Assembly: GCA_003598085.1 (NCBI GenBank)
Contig: QZKU01000128.1
Location: forward strand, 1 to 64,000
Source: Candidatus Abyssobacteria bacterium SURF_5
GTDB taxonomy: Bacteria > Abyssobacteria > SURF-5
Direction: 5' to 3'
DNA: 64,000 nt
Shown here: in pieces, positions 565-48,340 of the stretch
Layout: each line of letters opens with the position of its first letter
Numbering within the stretch: position 1 is the first letter of the stretch
Notes under the pieces: model-generated
Told to the model about the DNA's origin: nothing
Databases searched by the model: none
The model's input: only the letters and a program-made list of their open reading frames with translations
Program-made: the position numbers and the translations under genes

Positions 565-2178
565 TCAATTCTTCTGAAACGACCAAATCTCATTGCTGGT
601 AACGATCGGCCGCTCCGCCGAGTCCAGGTCGATCCCACGAACCCGCCAATACAAGGGAACTCCCGCGGGAACCTTGCTCCACAGGAACGACGGCATCGCC
701 CATTGAGTCTCGGTCAGAATCTGAGATAAATTCTCATACGTCGAATAGTAGCTTGTGAAAGCGGCGCTCGTGCTCACTTCAATGGCGAACGCGTCTCTCG
801 TCCCGCCGTCGGGCGTCCAGACAAACAGCGGGGGCGCCGAAAGAGCGGCGCCGTCGGCCGGTGAAATCAACGAGATTTCCTGCAGGCCGGTCACTTCCAC
901 TATCGGATAATGGTAACCCATATCCACGATGCCCGCGTCTCCCACTCCGGTCGCATCCAATTGATCGCTGCGAGTGGTTAGCATCTGCAGGCCCAAAAGC
1001 AAAGCCTCGTCGTTTCCCGCGTCCACGCACGGGCTGTCCGATGCCTGGCCGGCATCTGTCTGGCTAAGATAAGACGAGCCGAGCGGGCCCTGGCTGAACA
1101 TCGGATCCGCACTGATATTGCTTTCAAGCCAGTACAGACTCGCCTCCGGTTCAACATAAGCCGCCGCTTTGCCTCCCTCTACGTCGCTGCTCTCAAACGC
1201 GGTCGAATCGTAGGACTGCAGCGCAATTTCGTTCCCGAGCAGCGCGGAATTCCCCCAGAAAATGCTGTTCGTTACGTTATTATGGGATTGATAGCTGTGA
1301 AATCCGCCGCCGCCCCAGCCGGCTGTATTATTCCGTACGGTGCAATTGGATATGTTGACGAAGGATGAAGAACAAAAAAAGCCGCCGCCCCACCATAAGG
1401 CGGCATTATTCTCTATGAGGCAATTCCAAAATGTGGGAGTGCAGTCCACATCAGTGACAATTCCGCCGCCGTTATCCGCTAAATTATTCCGGAGAATCGT
1501 CTCCGCTATTATTGGAGCGCCTCGAATAAGGAAGACGCCTCCGCCCTCCTCTGCCGAATTTGTTTCAATCGTGCATCCACTGATCAACGGAGAAGAATTC
1601 GTCGAGTATATGCCGCCTCCATACATGGCTTCATTTGCTGTCAACGTGCAGGCTGAAATGATGGGAGACGAATCCCTGCAACTGATCGCTCCACCGAAAT
1701 TCGCTGCGCAGGCGGTAATGGTGCAGTTCGTAATCGTGGGGGAGGCTCCGCGCTCACAGAAAATGCCTCCACCCTCTGAAGTCTCGCCGTCCATACCGTT
1801 CCTGATCGTGAATCCGCTAACTGCCGAATCTGCGCCTTCACCGGAATGAAAATAGAATCCCCTTCCGTCTCCCTGACAATCGATGATGCAATTGGCCGCG
1901 CCATTCTCAGAAACAAGCTTGATTGGTTTCCCCTGAAAATCGAGGTTCTTGTTCTCCGCTCCCGTATAGATGCCGTCTCGCACGATCACATAAATATCGG
2001 TGACCGCGTTGAGAGCCGCCTGTATCGTGGGAAAATCGTCCGGAACATACACCGCGGATGCGGGGGCTGATGCGATCGCAACCGCGCCCGGCTCAGCCGC
2101 CAAACCTCTTCTTGGGCCGAAAACAAAGATGAAAACAAGAACGATTAGGAAGACCTTGCGCCTGCTATCCCATCTCAT
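565..2178 (-). CDS. Secreted right-handed beta-helix (pectate-lyase-like fold) protein with shared C-terminal module
   Basis: The 537-residue product has an N-terminal signal peptide (hydrophobic residues about 10-28). A beta-helix follows from about residue 45, opening with the VPDDFPTIQAALNAV motif and the phrase VIVRDGIYTG. Many repeated coils of the type GGGI, ITNCTI and NNSA follow to about residue 400. The last ~105 residues are an Ig/Fn3-like module (SP..G, F.W, YSTY, YWRVRG, S.E.W.F.K) also found at the ends of the proteins at 9538-13017 and 46514-48340. The fold suggests surface or extracellular polysaccharide binding or cleavage, but no catalytic residues can be named. It is monocistronic, with a repeat-rich region upstream. 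Confidence 0.85.
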   Translation of the reverse strand: MRWDSRRKVFLIVLVFIFVFGPRRGLAAEPGAVAIASAPASAVYVPDDFPTIQAALNAVTDIYVIVRDGIYTGAENKNLDFQGKPIKLVSENGAANCIIDCQGDGRGFYFHSGEGADSAVSGFTIRNGMDGETSEGGGIFCERGASPTITNCTITACAANFGGAISCRDSSPIISACTLTANEAMYGGGIYSTNSSPLISGCTIETNSAEEGGGVFLIRGAPIIAETILRNNLADNGGGIVTDVDCTPTFWNCLIENNAALWWGGGFFCSSSFVNISNCTVRNNTAGWGGGGFHSYQSHNNVTNSIFWGNSALLGNEIALQSYDSTAFESSDVEGGKAAAYVEPEASLYWLESNISADPMFSQGPLGSSYLSQTDAGQASDSPCVDAGNDEALLLGLQMLTTRSDQLDATGVGDAGIVDMGYHYPIVEVTGLQEISLISPADGAALSAPPLFVWTPDGGTRDAFAIEVSTSAAFTSYYSTYENLSQILTETQWAMPSFLWSKVPAGVPLYWRVRGIDLDSAERPIVTSNEIWSFQKN

Positions 2179-3504: not shown

Positions 3505-5448
3505 TTAAGGGGGATTTTGAGGTACATAGGCGGACGGCAGTAGTTCTTCATTATTCTTCTCCCACCATTTGGTCCACCTCTTCGCATCCCAGCCATAATG
3601 CTTGCCCGTCAATTCCGTGAGGATCTGGCCATAATGGTTTCGTTGAGAATAATGATATGTTTGAGAACGATCCTCCAGATACGAGATAAGCAGAGGAACA
3701 GTGGAATAATCTCCCATCCTTGCAAACCGAACGACATAGTCCCTGAGGAAAGGATTCGAATGCTGGCGAGAAAGTCTTGCAAGTTCCTCCCTCAAGTACT
3801 GTCTTGCTGGCAGGTCCCCCGATTCCGCGAGCGCAAAGCCCGTCTCCAGCTTCAGGACCGGAGCGAGATCGGGTTGTGAAAATAATTCTTGAAGATGCCT
3901 CCTCGCCTCGGCGCTTCTTATTCGCCCGAGTGCCTCAATTGCCTTCCGATGCCGTGCAGGGTTTTCATGTATTACCTGCAAAAGAGGCTGAGCCGCCTCT
4001 TCGCACCGTAGTTTCCCCAGCGATTCGGCCGCCCTTTCGCTGACGCGCGCATTCTCATCGAAAAGAACCTGTATCAACGGACTGCATGGGGGAGTTCCAG
4101 TCATATTCCCCATGCTCTTCGCTATACCTTCGCGAACATAGGCGAGCGGATGTTCCTGCATCAAACGAACAATGCGTGGTTGAGCTTCGCCATGATTGAG
4201 CGAACAGAGCCGGGAAGCGGCCATGCTGCATACGCGCGGATTCTCATCATCTAACAGGGGAATGAGATATTCCGCCGCATCCTGCTGCACGAGGTCCGTT
4301 ATTGCCATCACAGCTCTCACCCTGATGCTGCTGTTGGGATGACTCAAAAGCGCGATCAGTTTATCCCTGGCTTCCGGAGCTTTCTCTGCCAGCAGATATT
4401 CAAGAGCGCTATGCACGACAGAATCATTCGGATCATCCAGCAGGCTCACGACCGCAGGGGTCGCTCCCTCGACCACTCGCGATAAAGCCGCCCGCCGAAC
4501 GCCAAGCATTTTTGCCGCCTCGCTGCGCACAACCGCATCGGGATGATGGAGCGCCTCCACAAGTTCCCTGTCCACCTTCTTGTCTGTGGTCGTCTCGAAA
4601 TACCACCTTAGTATTTCTTTTCTGCCGTCACCTTTCGCGGCCAGAAGAGGAAGAATATTCTCTGCCGGTCCACGGATCAAACTAATTGATGCCGTATCTG
4701 CAGACGAGGCCAGCATCGGAATCAACCAGATTTTCGATGAGAGCGACCTGACGAAAATAAGGAAAAGGAGGACTGACGCGATCCCCAAACGCTTCCATTC
4801 GTAGGAAAGTACCATTCCTCTGACGAGAGCAAAGCCGCCTGCGCCTGCCAGCAGAACAGAGAGCAAGCCATAAAACCATACGCACTCCACCCACACGTCC
4901 TCGAGCGATTGACGCCATAACCAGACATAGCGAAAGAAGGGCGAAGCATTGATAAGAAAGATACTTCCGCAAAGGAAAACGAGGCTCGATGCGAAAGCTT
5001 TCGGCGGAGTCTCAGAAATGCAGGAAAAACAAACAGACGCTGATAGCGTGAACAAAAGGAAAGAGAACAGGATAACAACGCTCCGGAAAACGTCGTACAG
5101 GTTCAGGTTGTGAGTTGGCCTGATCAGCTTGAAAATCGCCAGCAGCAATACAAGGATGAGCATAAGGCAGCCAACCCTTAGCAGGTACTTGATGAGGTAG
5201 ACATGCAGCCGCCCCACAGGACGCGCCATAAGAAACTCGAATGTGCCGGCTTCCCGCTCGCCCGCAATCGCTCCCGCTCCCACGAAAAGGAAAATGAAGG
5301 AAAGACACAGGAGCGCCACTGCCCAGAATTGAACCTCAAAGTACTCAGGACGCCAGTTCTCCCACCTGATATGAGAGACGGCGGTAATTGCCGCCACCGA
5401 GAGCAGTGGTATCGCAAACAGTTCGCGCCATTCCTTCCACAAGAGCAT
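3505..5448 (-). CDS. ABC-2 type permease fused to HEAT repeats
   Basis: About 647 residues from the ATG at 5448, which follows the stop of the upstream permease by one base (TGA-A-ATG). An in-frame upstream start at 5478 would overlap that gene. Residues 1-250 begin LLWKEWREL and carry about six membrane segments typical of ABC-2 permeases. From about residue 290 to the end there are repeated helical pairs of HEAT/PBS-lyase type (DDPNDSVVHSALEYL, LSHPNSSIRVRAVMAI, DENPRVCSMAAS), ending in LTGKHYGWDAKRWTKWW. It is the last gene of the gntR-ATPase-permease operon and probably partners the ATPase. The HEAT part is likely a protein-binding platform. The stop codon TAA lies in the TTAA duplication of the adjacent mobile element. 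Confidence 0.8.
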   Translation of the reverse strand: MLLWKEWRELFAIPLLSVAAITAVSHIRWENWRPEYFEVQFWAVALLCLSFIFLFVGAGAIAGEREAGTFEFLMARPVGRLHVYLIKYLLRVGCLMLILVLLLAIFKLIRPTHNLNLYDVFRSVVILFSFLLFTLSASVCFSCISETPPKAFASSLVFLCGSIFLINASPFFRYVWLWRQSLEDVWVECVWFYGLLSVLLAGAGGFALVRGMVLSYEWKRLGIASVLLFLIFVRSLSSKIWLIPMLASSADTASISLIRGPAENILPLLAAKGDGRKEILRWYFETTTDKKVDRELVEALHHPDAVVRSEAAKMLGVRRAALSRVVEGATPAVVSLLDDPNDSVVHSALEYLLAEKAPEARDKLIALLSHPNSSIRVRAVMAITDLVQQDAAEYLIPLLDDENPRVCSMAASRLCSLNHGEAQPRIVRLMQEHPLAYVREGIAKSMGNMTGTPPCSPLIQVLFDENARVSERAAESLGKLRCEEAAQPLLQVIHENPARHRKAIEALGRIRSAEARRHLQELFSQPDLAPVLKLETGFALAESGDLPARQYLREELARLSRQHSNPFLRDYVVRFARMGDYSTVPLLISYLEDRSQTYHYSQRNHYGQILTELTGKHYGWDAKRWTKWWEKNNEELLPSAYVPQNPP

Positions 5449-5449
5449 T

Positions 5450-6166
5450 TCAGTATTCGCTCCGGCTGAACAGAACAATACCTGATATCGCCATGATTGG
5501 AATCAATATGAGAAGCAGAAGGATATCTCCTTTGACTTGCTCCAGCGAATCGACTTTCTGCAGAATTGCCATTCCGCGAAATGAAAAGTGTGCCGCGGCT
5601 AATATTACGCCCGATATTGCCGGCAGCACTTTCCTGGGAATAATGGTGGAAAGCAAAAGCGTGCCGGAAAAAATGAATACAACAACCAGCAGAGATAACA
5701 GCAGGTATTGCGGCGCGAGATACGGCGGCACCCACATCCATTGAAGGCGGTCATCCCAGACGCCGGCAAAAGCAGGGTGGGCCACGATCGACGGAGACGC
5801 CATATTCAGGATGCGAGCAAGAAAAAGAACGGGGCCTGTGTCCTTGACCAACTCCACCACTGTTGGAACGCAGTATATCAAGGTTACTTCTGCTCCGCGA
5901 ACAAGAAACTTTGCTGCGAGGAGCTTTTCCTTGAGGAGTGGCTGAGAGACGAGGAACGACAAAGTGCCGCCCTCGATCTCCGAAGATAATGCGCCCGAGC
6001 CGGAAACGATTGCAAATCCGATTCCGAAAAACAGGAGGAACATACTCAGCCAGTAGTCTTCAATGAGACCGCTTGTGTTGGGAAGACTGTAATATAACCC
6101 GGTGACAAAGAATAACGTCACCAGGAATCCAAAACGTGTTTCGCGCCACTCTTTCCAGAAAACCAT
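5450..6166 (-). CDS. ABC-2 type transporter permease
   Basis: 238 residues starting MVFWKEWRETRFGF, which is the same N-terminal KEWRE motif as the next gene. Six hydrophobic segments span residues 15-235. The start is 11 bp after the ATPase stop with a GAGGGCGG ribosome site. It probably pairs with the HEAT-fused permease as a two-permease exporter driven by the ATPase at 6178-7062. The arrangement resembles ytr-type efflux operons under a GntR repressor. Substrate unknown. Confidence 0.85.
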   Translation of the reverse strand: MVFWKEWRETRFGFLVTLFFVTGLYYSLPNTSGLIEDYWLSMFLLFFGIGFAIVSGSGALSSEIEGGTLSFLVSQPLLKEKLLAAKFLVRGAEVTLIYCVPTVVELVKDTGPVLFLARILNMASPSIVAHPAFAGVWDDRLQWMWVPPYLAPQYLLLSLLVVVFIFSGTLLLSTIIPRKVLPAISGVILAAAHFSFRGMAILQKVDSLEQVKGDILLLLILIPIMAISGIVLFSRSEY

Positions 6167-9537: not shown

Positions 9538-12500
9538 ATGAATCGCTATCGGTCTGCCTACATCATTACCGTGTCCATAATCATGCTCCTTTCCCTTCCG
9601 CCATATGCCTTCGCTTTCAGAGCTCAGCAGGGCAATGCGATCCTCTCACAGGGGCATGACGGTTCGAACTTATTGAGTGACTTAAGAACCGTTCATGTTC
9701 GGAGCTCGCAAAAGGTTTCCGGTGGAAATGTCGGCAAGGCCGCTGTTGAAGCCGTCTCCTCTTTCATGACAGCGGCGAATTCTGAAGCTGTGGTCGCAAG
9801 GATTCAGAGAGATGAACTCGGATTCACGCATATTCGACTGGAGCAGCGATACAGGGGCCTGCCGGTAGTCGGCGGGCAGCTTATCGTTCACCTCAACAGC
9901 AAGGATGAAATATACCTTATCCACGGCAAGTACCTTCCGGCTCTTCGAGTCTCGACACAGCCAGGAACAGACTCGAAGGCTGCCCTGCAGGTCGGTTACG
10001 CCGCAATGGCCGGCAAGGCAGGCACCCGTCTTGCCAGGCAGCCCTCCCTTGTTATTTATGGCTCTCACCTGGCCTATCATTTTGTAATCGCGTACAGTGG
10101 TGAATCTCCCGGCCAGTGGCTTTTTTACGTAGACGCCCATTCTGGCGAACTGATCGTGGGCTACAACAGCATCAGATTTGCGGGGCCAACAGGTGTCGGT
10201 TCACACCAAGAGGTGTCGGGATATCGTCTCCCGGGCGAAGATGGCGCGCTTGCGGCGATGGCGGGATGGGAAGAAGATAACGGCAACTTCTTTGTTTATA
10301 ACTTTGATAACGTCTGGGGAGTTTATGACGAAGACGTGGTTGATTGGGAGCAGCAAGCGATAAGCTTCTGGGACGGCGCCGATCCGGCCGCAGTTTCCCT
10401 TGGTTTCAATTTCTCACTGATTCAAAGCTGGGTCATGAATACGATGAGCCGAAACAGCTTTGACGGCGCCGGCGGCTTTGCAAGGGCCAATGCGCATACG
10501 GGCGACCTGTACGTGAACGCCTACTGGGACGGCAGCGACTTTCACTTTGGCGATGGCGACGGGGTCACGGCGAATCCACTTGCTGTTCTGGATATCGCGG
10601 CCCACGAGTACGGACATGCGATCACCGAACACACTTCGGGTCTCATATATGAATACGAATCGGGCGCGCTTGACGAATCCTTCGCCGATATCATGGGCGC
10701 CGCAGTAGAATTCGCCTTTCAGCCGGACGGCACAGGAGCTTATCCATTGGGCAATCCGGGGCAGTCGGACTGGCTGATCGGAGAGGATTCTTGGCTGGAA
10801 AGTGAGGCGCTTAGAGATTTGCGAGATCCCCAGCGTTTCGGCCAGCCATCGTTTTACGAGGGCACGAACTGGTATGTCGGACCGGACGACAACGGCGGCG
10901 TGCACACCAACAACGGAGTTCAGAACTTTGTGTTTTACCTCCTCGCGCAGGGGGGCAGTGGAGTGAATGATGGCGAGCCTTACAATGTCACAGGAATAGG
11001 AATTGCGAACGCCGCGGCAGTGGCTATGCGCGCCAATATGTATTACCTCCTTCCGTCTTCCCAGTTCATCGACGCCCGGAGCGCATGGGTGGATGCGGCG
11101 GCCGATCTCGGTTTTTCGACCGGCCCTGTGAAAGACGCATGGGAAGCCGTGGGCGTGGGTGGATTTGTGGTCCCGGACGATTATCCCACTATTCAAGAAG
11201 CGATCAACGCCTCAGCCAATGGCGATGTTGTCATCGTGCGCGACGGGATTTACACGGGTCCAGGAAACACCAACGTCAGATTCTATGGAAAACAGATCAC
11301 GGTGCGCTCTCAGAACGGGCCGCAGAACTGCGTCATCGATTGTCAAAATAGCGCGAGAGGATTCATCTTCACTGAGAGTGAGACGTCTTCCTCAAAACTT
11401 GTAGGCGTCACAATCACAAATGGTTTTGCTCTCGGGAATGGGGGGGGCATCTGTATAGATGGTTCCTCGCCCACGGTCGCGAACTGCGTGGTGAGCAACT
11501 GCGGGACCTCGGCGCCAACCAGCCATGTCATCCTTGATAACGACGATATCGGAAACGGCGGCGGTATTTATCTGGCAGAATCGGCATCGGCGTTCGAACG
11601 TTGCATAATCGCCGGCAATACCTCAGCCAGTGACGGGGCCGGAATGTATTGCACATACTCATCAATATCCATAATCAACTGTAACATTGTCGGCAATAGC
11701 ACGGCGGAGGACGGCGGCGGAATCGAAGCCAACAGCAACGCGTCGGTGATGATCACCAATTGCTCCATTGTTGGTAATACCGCGAGCGAACGCGGTGGCG
11801 GAATTGACTGCATCAACGGCTCGAACGTGACCGTCACAAATTCTATTCTGTGGGACAATTCCGGTACCGGAAGCCAAATCGGCATAGCGGGTTGGGATAA
11901 CCCCTCTTCGGTTACCGTTCGCTACAGTGATGTAATGGGCGGTTCGGGAGGCGTTCACATCGACCCGCCCGATTGGTGCCCGGACTGCGCGCTATACTGG
12001 GAAGCCGGCAATATCGATGCAAATCCACAATTTGCCGGAGTCGGCAACTATCACCTTCTTGCATCCTCACCCTGCATCGACGCCGGAACCGCTGCAGGAG
12101 CGCCCGACGAAGATATCGAAGAAGACCTTCGCCCCTTTGCCGCGGGCTTTGATATGGGCTCGGATGAGTACGTAGGCGACTGCGAATATTCAGTTTCCCC
12201 CATGAGCCAGACTTTCGGTCCTGACGGAGGCGATGGCGTAATCGATGTGACGACTGACGATTGGTGCGACTGGAACGCAATCAGCAACGCCGACTGGATT
12301 CACATTACGTGGGGCAGCGGCGGCGGCGGGAACGGGACTGTGTATTATTCGGTTTCGTCGAATCCTTCGACGTCACCACGCCTCGGCTCGATAAATGTCG
12401 AGGATCAGAGCTTTCCAATTCAGCAGGAGGCGCTCACCTGCTCCTACTCCATCTCGCCTGAATTCACATCCTTCGATCCGTTTGGCGGTCCGGGAAGTGT

Positions 12501-13017
12501 GAGTGTGATCGCGCCCGGTGACTGCGATTGGAGCGCCCAATCCAACAGCTCATGGATAGTTGTCACGTCGGGCGGTTCAGGAACCGGCAATGGAATGGTC
12601 AACTACAACGTATCGGCAAACTATACCGGTCGTACCCGCAACGGAACGATAACTATCGCAACGAACACTTTTACGGTTACTCAGCCGACCGCTTGTTTTC
12701 TGACAACGATACATCTCACATCTCCGCAAAACGAAGCAGTTCTGACGTCCGCTCCCACATTCACTTGGATGTCGGACGCATGCCCCGGGGATATATTCGC
12801 GGTGGATATCGCTGTCCCGCCATGGGTTTCGTTCTGGTCTACCTATAACAATTTGGGGCTTCGCATAATCCAGCCTTATTGGACTATGCCCGAAAATTTA
12901 TGGAGTCAGATACCATCTGGCGCCACCGTATACTGGAGGGTTCGCGGAAGAAACGGATATCAAAACCCGCCCGCAATAATCAACAGTGACGAGGTGTGGC
13001 GGTTCCGAAAGAATTAG
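9538..13017 (+). CDS. Secreted M4 (thermolysin-like) metalloprotease fused to beta-helix, two BACON domains and C-terminal module
   Basis: 1159 residues from the ATG at 9538, which has GGGAG at good spacing; the frame is open upstream but lacks a signal peptide there. Order: signal peptide (1-25); FTP/propeptide domain (~50-140, with GFTHIRLEQRYRGLPVVGGQ); M4 catalytic domain (~215-540) with H356-E-x-x-H360 and third ligand E380, spaced as in thermolysin, plus catalytic H456 in GGVHTNNGVQN; right-handed beta-helix (~540-880, opening VPDDYPTIQEAIN); BACON domains at ~882-967 and 968-1051; and an Ig/Fn3-like C-terminal module (~1056-1159). All visible zinc and catalytic residues are intact, so an active extracellular protease is likely. 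BACON domains often bind glycans or mucin-type substrates. Confidence 0.9.
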   Translation: MNRYRSAYIITVSIIMLLSLPPYAFAFRAQQGNAILSQGHDGSNLLSDLRTVHVRSSQKVSGGNVGKAAVEAVSSFMTAANSEAVVARIQRDELGFTHIRLEQRYRGLPVVGGQLIVHLNSKDEIYLIHGKYLPALRVSTQPGTDSKAALQVGYAAMAGKAGTRLARQPSLVIYGSHLAYHFVIAYSGESPGQWLFYVDAHSGELIVGYNSIRFAGPTGVGSHQEVSGYRLPGEDGALAAMAGWEEDNGNFFVYNFDNVWGVYDEDVVDWEQQAISFWDGADPAAVSLGFNFSLIQSWVMNTMSRNSFDGAGGFARANAHTGDLYVNAYWDGSDFHFGDGDGVTANPLAVLDIAAHEYGHAITEHTSGLIYEYESGALDESFADIMGAAVEFAFQPDGTGAYPLGNPGQSDWLIGEDSWLESEALRDLRDPQRFGQPSFYEGTNWYVGPDDNGGVHTNNGVQNFVFYLLAQGGSGVNDGEPYNVTGIGIANAAAVAMRANMYYLLPSSQFIDARSAWVDAAADLGFSTGPVKDAWEAVGVGGFVVPDDYPTIQEAINASANGDVVIVRDGIYTGPGNTNVRFYGKQITVRSQNGPQNCVIDCQNSARGFIFTESETSSSKLVGVTITNGFALGNGGGICIDGSSPTVANCVVSNCGTSAPTSHVILDNDDIGNGGGIYLAESASAFERCIIAGNTSASDGAGMYCTYSSISIINCNIVGNSTAEDGGGIEANSNASVMITNCSIVGNTASERGGGIDCINGSNVTVTNSILWDNSGTGSQIGIAGWDNPSSVTVRYSDVMGGSGGVHIDPPDWCPDCALYWEAGNIDANPQFAGVGNYHLLASSPCIDAGTAAGAPDEDIEEDLRPFAAGFDMGSDEYVGDCEYSVSPMSQTFGPDGGDGVIDVTTDDWCDWNAISNADWIHITWGSGGGGNGTVYYSVSSNPSTSPRLGSINVEDQSFPIQQEALTCSYSISPEFTSFDPFGGPGSVSVIAPGDCDWSAQSNSSWIVVTSGGSGTGNGMVNYNVSANYTGRTRNGTITIATNTFTVTQPTACFLTTIHLTSPQNEAVLTSAPTFTWMSDACPGDIFAVDIAVPPWVSFWSTYNNLGLRIIQPYWTMPENLWSQIPSGATVYWRVRGRNGYQNPPAIINSDEVWRFRKN

Positions 13018-46513: not shown

Positions 46514-48340
46514 CTATTTTGTCAGCGACCGCACTTCCTCGCTGGTGACAATGACCGGCGGCGAGTCTTCAAGGTCCGCCCCCCGCACGCGCCAATACAG
46601 GCGACCCGGAGGGATCATGTTCCAGATCGTGGGCGGCATTGTCCAGCAGCTTTCCCGGATGATCTGATGCAGATGCTCGTACGTCGAGTAGATGGGGCCG
46701 AGAGGGGACAACGCGACATCTACGGAGAATCCATTGTTGCAGCCGCCGGTGGCCGACCAACAGAACGTCGGGGGCGACGTGGCGATGGCGCCATTGGCAG
46801 GAGATTGCAGATCAATTTCGGTCAGGGCGAGGGGAATATACTCGTCCGCGCCCATATCGAATCCCTCCTCTTGCGGTCGGTTGTCTCCGTCCATGTCAAT
46901 GTAAACTCCTGCTTCACTACACGCATCAACGCAGGGGGAGAGACAAGCAAGATGATGATCCTCCGACAGAAGCGGTTCCTCAGCGATATTGCCGCCGCCC
47001 CAATCCAGCGAACATCCCGGCCCTACGCTTATGCCGGCTGCCCCGTTTTCGATGTCGCTGCAATAAACTGCAAGAGCGGAATTATTTACCAGATTGATGC
47101 CGGACGAGTTGTCCCAGAAAATGGAGTTTGTAATTGTGGCCGGCGTTTGTTCCAGGGCAAGCGTTCCGCCTGCGCCAGATGAATTTGCTGCAATGGTGCT
47201 ATGCGTGATGATCAGCTCACCCGCCTCCAGGATCGACAACGCGCCGGCCTGCCTGAGCGCTGTATTTCCACTGATCACAACATTGGTCAGATCGGGTGGT
47301 AATCCGCCTTCGATATAGAGGCCCCCGCCGTTATCATGGGAGAAGTTGCCGCTTATCGTGCAGTCGTTTAGTGAAATACCGGAATGATAAGAGAAAATGC
47401 CGCCGCCCATACCGGTGGCCGAGTTATCTGCGACCGTCGAATTCCGAATATTCAGGCTGGCTAACCACGTCGCTATCCCCCCGCCGCCGGAGGGACTGGA
47501 GTTTCCGGTTATGGAACAATTATCGATCCATGCGCCGCACAGTTCCAATTCTATGCCGCTATCCTGATTTCCAGCGACGACGCAATTTTCGAGATTGAAA
47601 GCGACTTCACTTAAAACACGAATTCCGAGGCCGGAGTGGCCGGTAATGATACAGTTGGAGATGCTGATTGCACCATCTCTGCCGCAGAAAATTCCGGTGC
47701 CGGCGCTGTTGGTGATCGTAAAGCCATCCAGCCTTTCGTCATAGTAAGTCAGGTCCCACCTGTTGAACGAGAATCCGGCACCGTCGACCACGCAGTTTGC
47801 GGGTCCATTCTCGGACCGAATGACGAGCGGTTTATCGATCACTGTCCCTCCCGAGGTATACGTTCCGTCTCGCACCACGATCTCATCTTGGTACCAGGCG
47901 TTGTCGATGGCCGTTTGGATTTGACAGTAGGGCTCGGCGCTCGTTCCCGAGCCCGGGCAGGCGACGTCGTCATCGACATAGATCTCCATCACCTCACGAA
48001 GAATGCAGGCCTCGTTTGAGGCCGGAGATTCGCCGCTGCTGTTGTATGCGGTGATGAAGTAGCAGTACTCCGTTCCGGCAGAAAGGAATTTGTTGTCGTC
48101 GTGTGTGGTGGTGTTCGCAGGCAGGTCCTTTATGCGCGTACCGTTTCGATAGACGCAGAAGCCATCCTCATCTGTCGAATTGTCCGTCCATGACAGATGG
48201 ACGATGCCGTTCACGTCGGGTTGCGCCTGCAGGTCGCTTGGCGCGGCTGGCGCAGCCAGCGCTTCCTTCGCGGGCGCCTGTGAACAGATAACAGAAAATA
48301 CGGCCAAAAATACAAGAACTGTGGAGCGAATGAGATACAT
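46514..48340 (-). CDS. Secreted Fn3/beta-helix protein with shared C-terminal module
   Basis: 608 residues. The signal peptide is followed by an Fn3 domain (~30-110: APSDLQAQPDVNGIVHLSWT ... YCYFITAYNSSGESPASNEA). A right-handed beta-helix (~115-500) follows with repeated ITNCSI/NNSS coils and phrases such as VVRDGTYTSGGTVIDKPLVI seen in the other two beta-helix proteins. The last ~100 residues are the shared module (SPANG, PTFCW, YSTYEHLHQI, WTMPP.IW, LYWRVRG, S.EVR). It is probably extracellular or surface-bound. No catalytic site can be assigned. Confidence 0.85.
   Translation of the reverse strand: MYLIRSTVLVFLAVFSVICSQAPAKEALAAPAAPSDLQAQPDVNGIVHLSWTDNSTDEDGFCVYRNGTRIKDLPANTTTHDDNKFLSAGTEYCYFITAYNSSGESPASNEACILREVMEIYVDDDVACPGSGTSAEPYCQIQTAIDNAWYQDEIVVRDGTYTSGGTVIDKPLVIRSENGPANCVVDGAGFSFNRWDLTYYDERLDGFTITNSAGTGIFCGRDGAISISNCIITGHSGLGIRVLSEVAFNLENCVVAGNQDSGIELELCGAWIDNCSITGNSSPSGGGGIATWLASLNIRNSTVADNSATGMGGGIFSYHSGISLNDCTISGNFSHDNGGGLYIEGGLPPDLTNVVISGNTALRQAGALSILEAGELIITHSTIAANSSGAGGTLALEQTPATITNSIFWDNSSGINLVNNSALAVYCSDIENGAAGISVGPGCSLDWGGGNIAEEPLLSEDHHLACLSPCVDACSEAGVYIDMDGDNRPQEEGFDMGADEYIPLALTEIDLQSPANGAIATSPPTFCWSATGGCNNGFSVDVALSPLGPIYSTYEHLHQIIRESCWTMPPTIWNMIPPGRLYWRVRGADLEDSPPVIVTSEEVRSLTK

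Follow-up and report, generated by a model that had tools for sequence, protein, structure and literature searches.

Why would three differently built secreted proteins, encoded within one stretch of a bacterial genome, end in the same hundred or so residues? The question is raised by 64,000 nucleotides of the Candidatus Abyssubacteria genome SURF_5 (the whole stretch analysed, hereafter the window), for which a preliminary description had reported a common C-terminal module with an Ig/Fn3-like fold and had proposed for it a lineage-specific role in sorting or anchoring. As set out below, the same folded tail stands on more than 20 different exported proteins of this little-known deep-subsurface bacterium, and it looks like a new address label of the cell envelope. 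The genome comprises 5.10 Mb in 145 contigs, the one that carries the window being 208,377 bases long; SURF_5 was published as a genome of 5.1 Mb in 145 scaffolds, the longest of 208,377 (Ca. Abyssubacteria; PMC6121073).

All three tails are present in the window as described, each a module of 105-108 residues that occurs once in a secreted protein and stops at the stop codon. Protein 1 (1159 amino acids; 9538..13017, plus strand) combines an FTP propeptide, an M4 peptidase, a beta-helix, a choice-of-anchor Q domain (12046..12171; NCBIfam NF041518) and two BACON domains, the second of which (12454..12687) immediately precedes the module at 12691-13014 (12691..13017 to the stop codon). Pfam matches the FTP, M4, M4_C and both BACON stretches, in agreement with the order of M4 protease, beta-helix and BACON first read from the sequence. 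The catalytic region of the peptidase lies at 10348..11157 (PF01447, PF02868) and a signal peptide-like N-terminus at 9538..9615 (a heuristic prediction, with an approximate cleavage point). A homologue of the M4 region was sought in the two family relatives of SURF_5 (SURF_17 and NC_groundwater_1808, the latter labelled Ca. Poribacteria), and none was found, so that a protease seen only in SURF_5 bears a tail of the whole family.

The other two proteins lie on the minus strand. Protein 2 (537 amino acids; 565..2178) consists of a signal peptide-like N-terminus (2095..2178, heuristic), a beta-helix and the module (568-891; 565..891 to the stop codon). Protein 3 (608 amino acids; 46514..48340) has a likewise heuristic signal peptide (48251..48340), a right-handed beta-helix (47258..47698; PF13229) and a choice-of-anchor Q domain (46838..46963), which immediately precedes the module (46517-46831; 46514..46831 to the stop codon) and whose NF041518 match scored 23.4 bits against a curated cut-off of 25 in one search and above the cut-off in another. 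Its description as an Fn3 and beta-helix protein stands for the beta-helix, which Pfam matches, and is weaker for the N-terminal Fn3, a PF00041 match below the Pfam cut-off. The common motifs noticed earlier are reflected in 30 columns that are identical across the three tails (identity to the tail of protein 1, 38-42%), with the exception of EVW.F, which is absent from protein 3, as its tail ends in SEEVRSLTK. Elsewhere in the window (3508-5478, minus strand), a single protein joins an ABC-2-type membrane region to HEAT repeats.

Distribution and fold of the module

A profile built from the three tails detected 26 copies of the module in SURF_5, 13 in NC_groundwater_1808 (G001) and 6 in SURF_17 (G002). 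The best E values in SURF_5 are 1e-58 for the three query tails and 1e-45 for a copy outside the profile, and the copies in this genome are far beyond chance. In a wider search, which covered 386 sampled genomes at E <= 1e-6, matches outside the three Abyssubacteria were confined to one copy in ARS67 (G119), a genome labelled Gemmatimonadetes (L070, NYZA01000258.1, 7149-8318), with an E value of 1e-41, and to a weak one in a further genome (G030). With a single strong copy outside the lineage, the module is lineage-specific, as had been proposed. The ARS67 copy sits on a C39-like protein whose cargo part is 65% identical to that of a SURF_5 protein; lateral transfer is therefore likely, judging from this similarity.

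We found no family model for the module in Pfam or NCBIfam and no real sequence match in the PDB. Among 35 module members, one matches Ig_Rha78A_N (PF25788, an Ig domain) with an E value of 1.8e-4 and none matches PF00041 at E<=1. A search for papers on its motif, on choice-of-anchor domains and on secretion in Hydrogenedentes likewise returned nothing on the module. An AlphaFold2 model computed from 35 rows has a pLDDT of 97.1 and a pTM of 0.88. Foldseek places mostly domains of Fn3 and Ig type at the top of its list for this model, with a best E value of only 3e-3 and TM scores of 0.5-0.6. The module is thus predicted with high confidence to be an Fn3/Ig-like beta-sandwich, as first supposed, without a close structural relative, and the best reading is that it is new as a family and derived from the Fn3 fold. 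STYENL, MP...W..IP.G and a terminal K are strongly conserved; conserved, too, are a segment S49-T50-Y51 and the W70 helix of the EF region.

Position, export and cargo

Position and export were counted over 44 full-length module proteins, of which 43 belong to the lineage and one to ARS67. The module ends at most four residues from the C-terminus in 38 of them, and none carries two modules; the remaining six copies are followed by 15, 57, 118, 122, 302 and 378 residues, one of them at a contig end. By comparison, PF00041 matches seven Fn3 domains in the three Abyssubacteria genomes, every one of them internal (Fisher p 1.5e-5). The penultimate position is occupied by K or R in 32 of the 38 terminal modules, against a background of 4.6%. 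A candidate Sec signal peptide was found in every one of the 44 proteins with a heuristic rather than SignalP; as this heuristic is lax, better evidence than the raw count comes from the contrast with neighbouring genes in a gene-level control (42 of 44 module proteins and 81 of 217 neighbours). The expectation that the module would always be C-terminal and secreted thus holds for the export signal and, for position, in 38 of 44 cases; it is not mainly internal, and the proteins that carry it look Sec-exported. In one place in SURF_5 (C140, L035; reverse-complement 9961-10165), a small ORF between two module genes contains nothing of the module but its last 21 residues and is perhaps a relic.

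The upstream parts are as unrelated as the window had suggested. They fall by blastp into 23 cargo groups among the 44 proteins, and their types include M4, M6, C39-like and S8 (subtilase) peptidases, LVIVD propellers, PKD and beta-helix proteins, proteins with a MopE motif and haem-binding proteins. Terminal, never repeated, placed on many kinds of cargo and with a signal peptide at the other end of the protein, the module follows the general pattern of C-terminal sorting signals. Its tree is at odds with the cargo: it groups the M4 protein with a propeller (99/93) and a further cargo likewise with a propeller (97/91), and it separates cytochrome-like orthologues by a 99/96 branch. The cargo parts of these orthologues are 66-73% identical and their modules 35-50%, close to the median of 46% over all pairs of modules. 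As the backbone of the tree, drawn from 107 columns, is unresolved, the sequences support a replacement of the module on its cargo for some pairs and suggest it for the rest.

A search with the choice-of-anchor Q domain revealed two alternative ends on related beta-helix passengers, this module (module A) and another one of about 110 residues, which we call module B and whose consensus comprises YWTNVTLPNG, YPPSGALFGP, PLGTYTYNAYIG and NEYHFNFEV. There are 15 copies of module B, five in each of SURF_5, G001 and G002 (L132, L135, L137, L140, L141, L150-L154, L157-L172), mostly on choice-of-anchor Q beta-helix proteins, and all 15 are terminal (0-4 residues from the end); among 60 genomes searched, it is confined to the three Abyssubacteria. 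Module B weakly matches the RbmA-like FnIII family PF22021 (best E 6.7e-5; six of nine members), and its AlphaFold2 model has a pLDDT of 47. It constitutes a matched alternative to module A on the same type of passenger. In G001, an exosortase gene stands directly beside and downstream of a beta-helix protein with module A (L077, C55), and at the matching exosortase locus in G002 (L157, C118) the beta-helix protein, truncated at the contig end, carries module B.

Other ends occur as well. One choice-of-anchor Q protein (L149) ends in a dockerin-like repeat, another (L156) in a third kind of tail with ADWWLLAETPKG, and some stop directly after the Q domain. Four proteins (L037, L044, L078, L108) have in common a C-terminal segment that starts with CFIATAAYGS and ends in a hydrophobic stretch, which we take to resemble CFI-box-type tails.

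A putative targeting domain and its rivals

On balance, and with moderate confidence, we regard the module as a C-terminal domain that the Abyssubacteria dedicate to targeting, be it sorting or anchoring, and that is probably used with type II secretion. What favours this reading is the terminal position of a single copy where PF00041 Fn3 domains are internal, the penultimate K or R, the export signals, the unrelated cargo groups and a module tree that does not follow them, together with beta-helix passengers that choose between module A, module B, other ends or none, the high pLDDT of the model, and the presence of type II components in the genomes that carry the module. Cargo would cross into the periplasm via Sec, as the signal peptides suggest; its last ~105 residues, predicted with high confidence to fold independently into an Fn3-like beta-sandwich, could then be read by one common envelope receptor, and the type II system would be the most likely route across the outer membrane. 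Of the original proposal of a sorting or anchoring module, the lineage-specific distribution, the export, the unrelated cargo, the Fn3/Ig-like fold and the terminal position in 38 of 44 proteins stand, the six internal copies do not fit, and the sorting step itself is one that we infer from these features.

The type II route is favoured because, of the candidate machineries looked for in SURF_5, no other was found, and the link is one of elimination and of co-occurrence in four genomes. Contig 25 of SURF_5 carries a near-complete type II operon, in which GspC, D, E, F, G, J and K are matched and H weakly so, whereas GspL and GspI are assigned from their position, supplemented by a weak match for the former and by a methylation motif for the latter. 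GspG is present in all four module-bearing genomes, including ARS67 outside the lineage, and is not specific to the module. As to the job that the module would do for its cargo, we think that non-covalent retention at the cell surface or in the matrix is more likely and that recruitment to the type II system comes second.

The main rival, which we consider possible, is that of an ordinary Fn3-like accessory domain, a stabiliser, spacer or weak adhesive, multiplied in this lineage by the shuffling of gene ends and without a dedicated receptor. Several observations count against a targeting domain and suit an accessory one: the ordinary Fn3/Ig fold, the six non-terminal copies, a distant relative in another phylum that lies inside a long protein, and the choice-of-anchor Q passengers without any module. 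That the module diverges faster than its cargo would likewise be in keeping with an accessory domain under weak constraint. A further point against a targeting domain is that we found no receptor gene and, as recurrent neighbours of module genes, only generic-looking families such as sensor kinases. An accessory domain would, however, hardly be expected to keep to the C-terminus so strictly, with one copy per protein and a near-invariant terminal K/R, or to retain a median identity of 46% on unrelated cargo and across genera, and generic Fn3 domains in the same genomes behave differently.

More speculative is the idea, which we put forward tentatively, that an Fn3 domain turned into a portable C-terminal tag read by the type II system or by a downstream surface receptor, with module B serving another destination. 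If true, this would be a general, transferable address for a pathway that is not known to use one.

Rather unlikely is a narrower form of the targeting reading, with which its probability therefore overlaps, namely that the module is a portable signal for type II recruitment, a folded Fn3 sandwich bound by GspC or GspD in the periplasm. Beyond the type II genes described above, it has a precedent in PelI and Pel3, pectate lyases of Dickeya and Pectobacterium, which possess an Fn3 domain whose loops 3 and 5 serve as signals for type II secretion, loop 3 touching both GspC and GspD (PMC7949064). That Fn3 domain, however, is N-terminal and is not common to different cargo. STYENL as a counterpart of the loop 3 signal of PelI was rejected, as the order of strands puts it at strand D and the DE loop and not at CD; conservation is also seen in the EF region, where part of it is what every Fn3 shows, and passengers with module B or with no module would need another signal. 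The recruitment mechanisms of type II secretion are called elusive in the paper on Pel3 (PMC7949064). It is an open question how this pathway selects folded substrates, and with more than 20 cargo proteins that have one end domain in common, a signal for recognition or anchoring would become directly testable. The module also offers a means of predicting surface and secreted proteins in the poorly known Abyssubacteria.

We consider it decidedly unlikely that, by analogy with the Fn3 domains of RbmA, the module binds matrix or polysaccharide and so retains exoproteins in a biofilm; being another form of anchoring, this too would overlap with the targeting reading. The weak PF22021 match of module B and the exosortase gene adjoining a module A protein in G001, with a module B protein at the corresponding locus in G002, are in keeping with it, but module A has no RbmA match.

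Comparison with known systems

The C-terminal domains (CTDs) of type IX secretion are necessary and sufficient for secretion and are cleaved by PorU in many substrates. They are about 100 residues long and stand, many per genome, at the C-terminus of otherwise unrelated Sec-exported proteins (PMC10202324), and the module is like them in length, position and unrelated Sec-type cargo. That it is such a domain, missed by current models, is nonetheless very improbable: SprA_N (PF14349), the sole type IX component searched, was found in none of the three Abyssubacteria, while the same search, run over 145 sampled genomes, gave matches above the cut-off in 36, and the module has no sequence match to the CTD models of Pfam and NCBIfam, be they of type A (PF18962/TIGR04183) or type B (PF13585/TIGR04131).

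PEP-CTERM-type tags are lineage-specific C-terminal suffixes on signal-peptide proteins that are alike only there (PMC3237569). The module, too, is a lineage-specific C-terminal part of signal-peptide proteins, a likeness that extends to the GlyGly-CTERM/rhombosortase system as well as to PEP-CTERM/exosortase. Whereas these tags consist of a motif, a transmembrane helix and a basic end, the module is a folded domain of ~105 residues without a transmembrane-like stretch (highest 19-residue hydropathy 1.31, median 0.65, over 44 modules), and the GlyGly-CTERM/rhombosortase and myxosortase systems need such a helix. No exosortase (PF09721) was found in SURF_5 with its 26 module copies, and one was found in each of the two relatives; a tripartite tag of the PEP-CTERM type was rejected for the module for want of the helix and of an exosortase in SURF_5. 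By the features tested, the module is neither a type IX nor a PEP-CTERM tag, two of the comparisons suggested at the outset. PEP-CTERM-like tails of their own, VPEPATLLLLGSG and VPEPSTLMLLGSG (L060, L093), occur in the two relatives with exosortase.

With PelI and Pel3 the module has in common an Fn3 fold joined to a beta-helix, which is relevant to secretion in their type II system; there, however, the Fn3 domain is N-terminal and confined to one enzyme group, whereas the module is C-terminal, is common to many cargo proteins and conserves different loops. RbmA-like FnIII domains (PF22021) are approached by module B, with its weak match, and not by module A. Finally, generic Fn3 and Ig domains (PF25788, PF00041) are of the same fold class, from which the module differs in being single, C-terminal and lineage-specific, and in its STYENL, its MP...W..IP.G and its terminal K.
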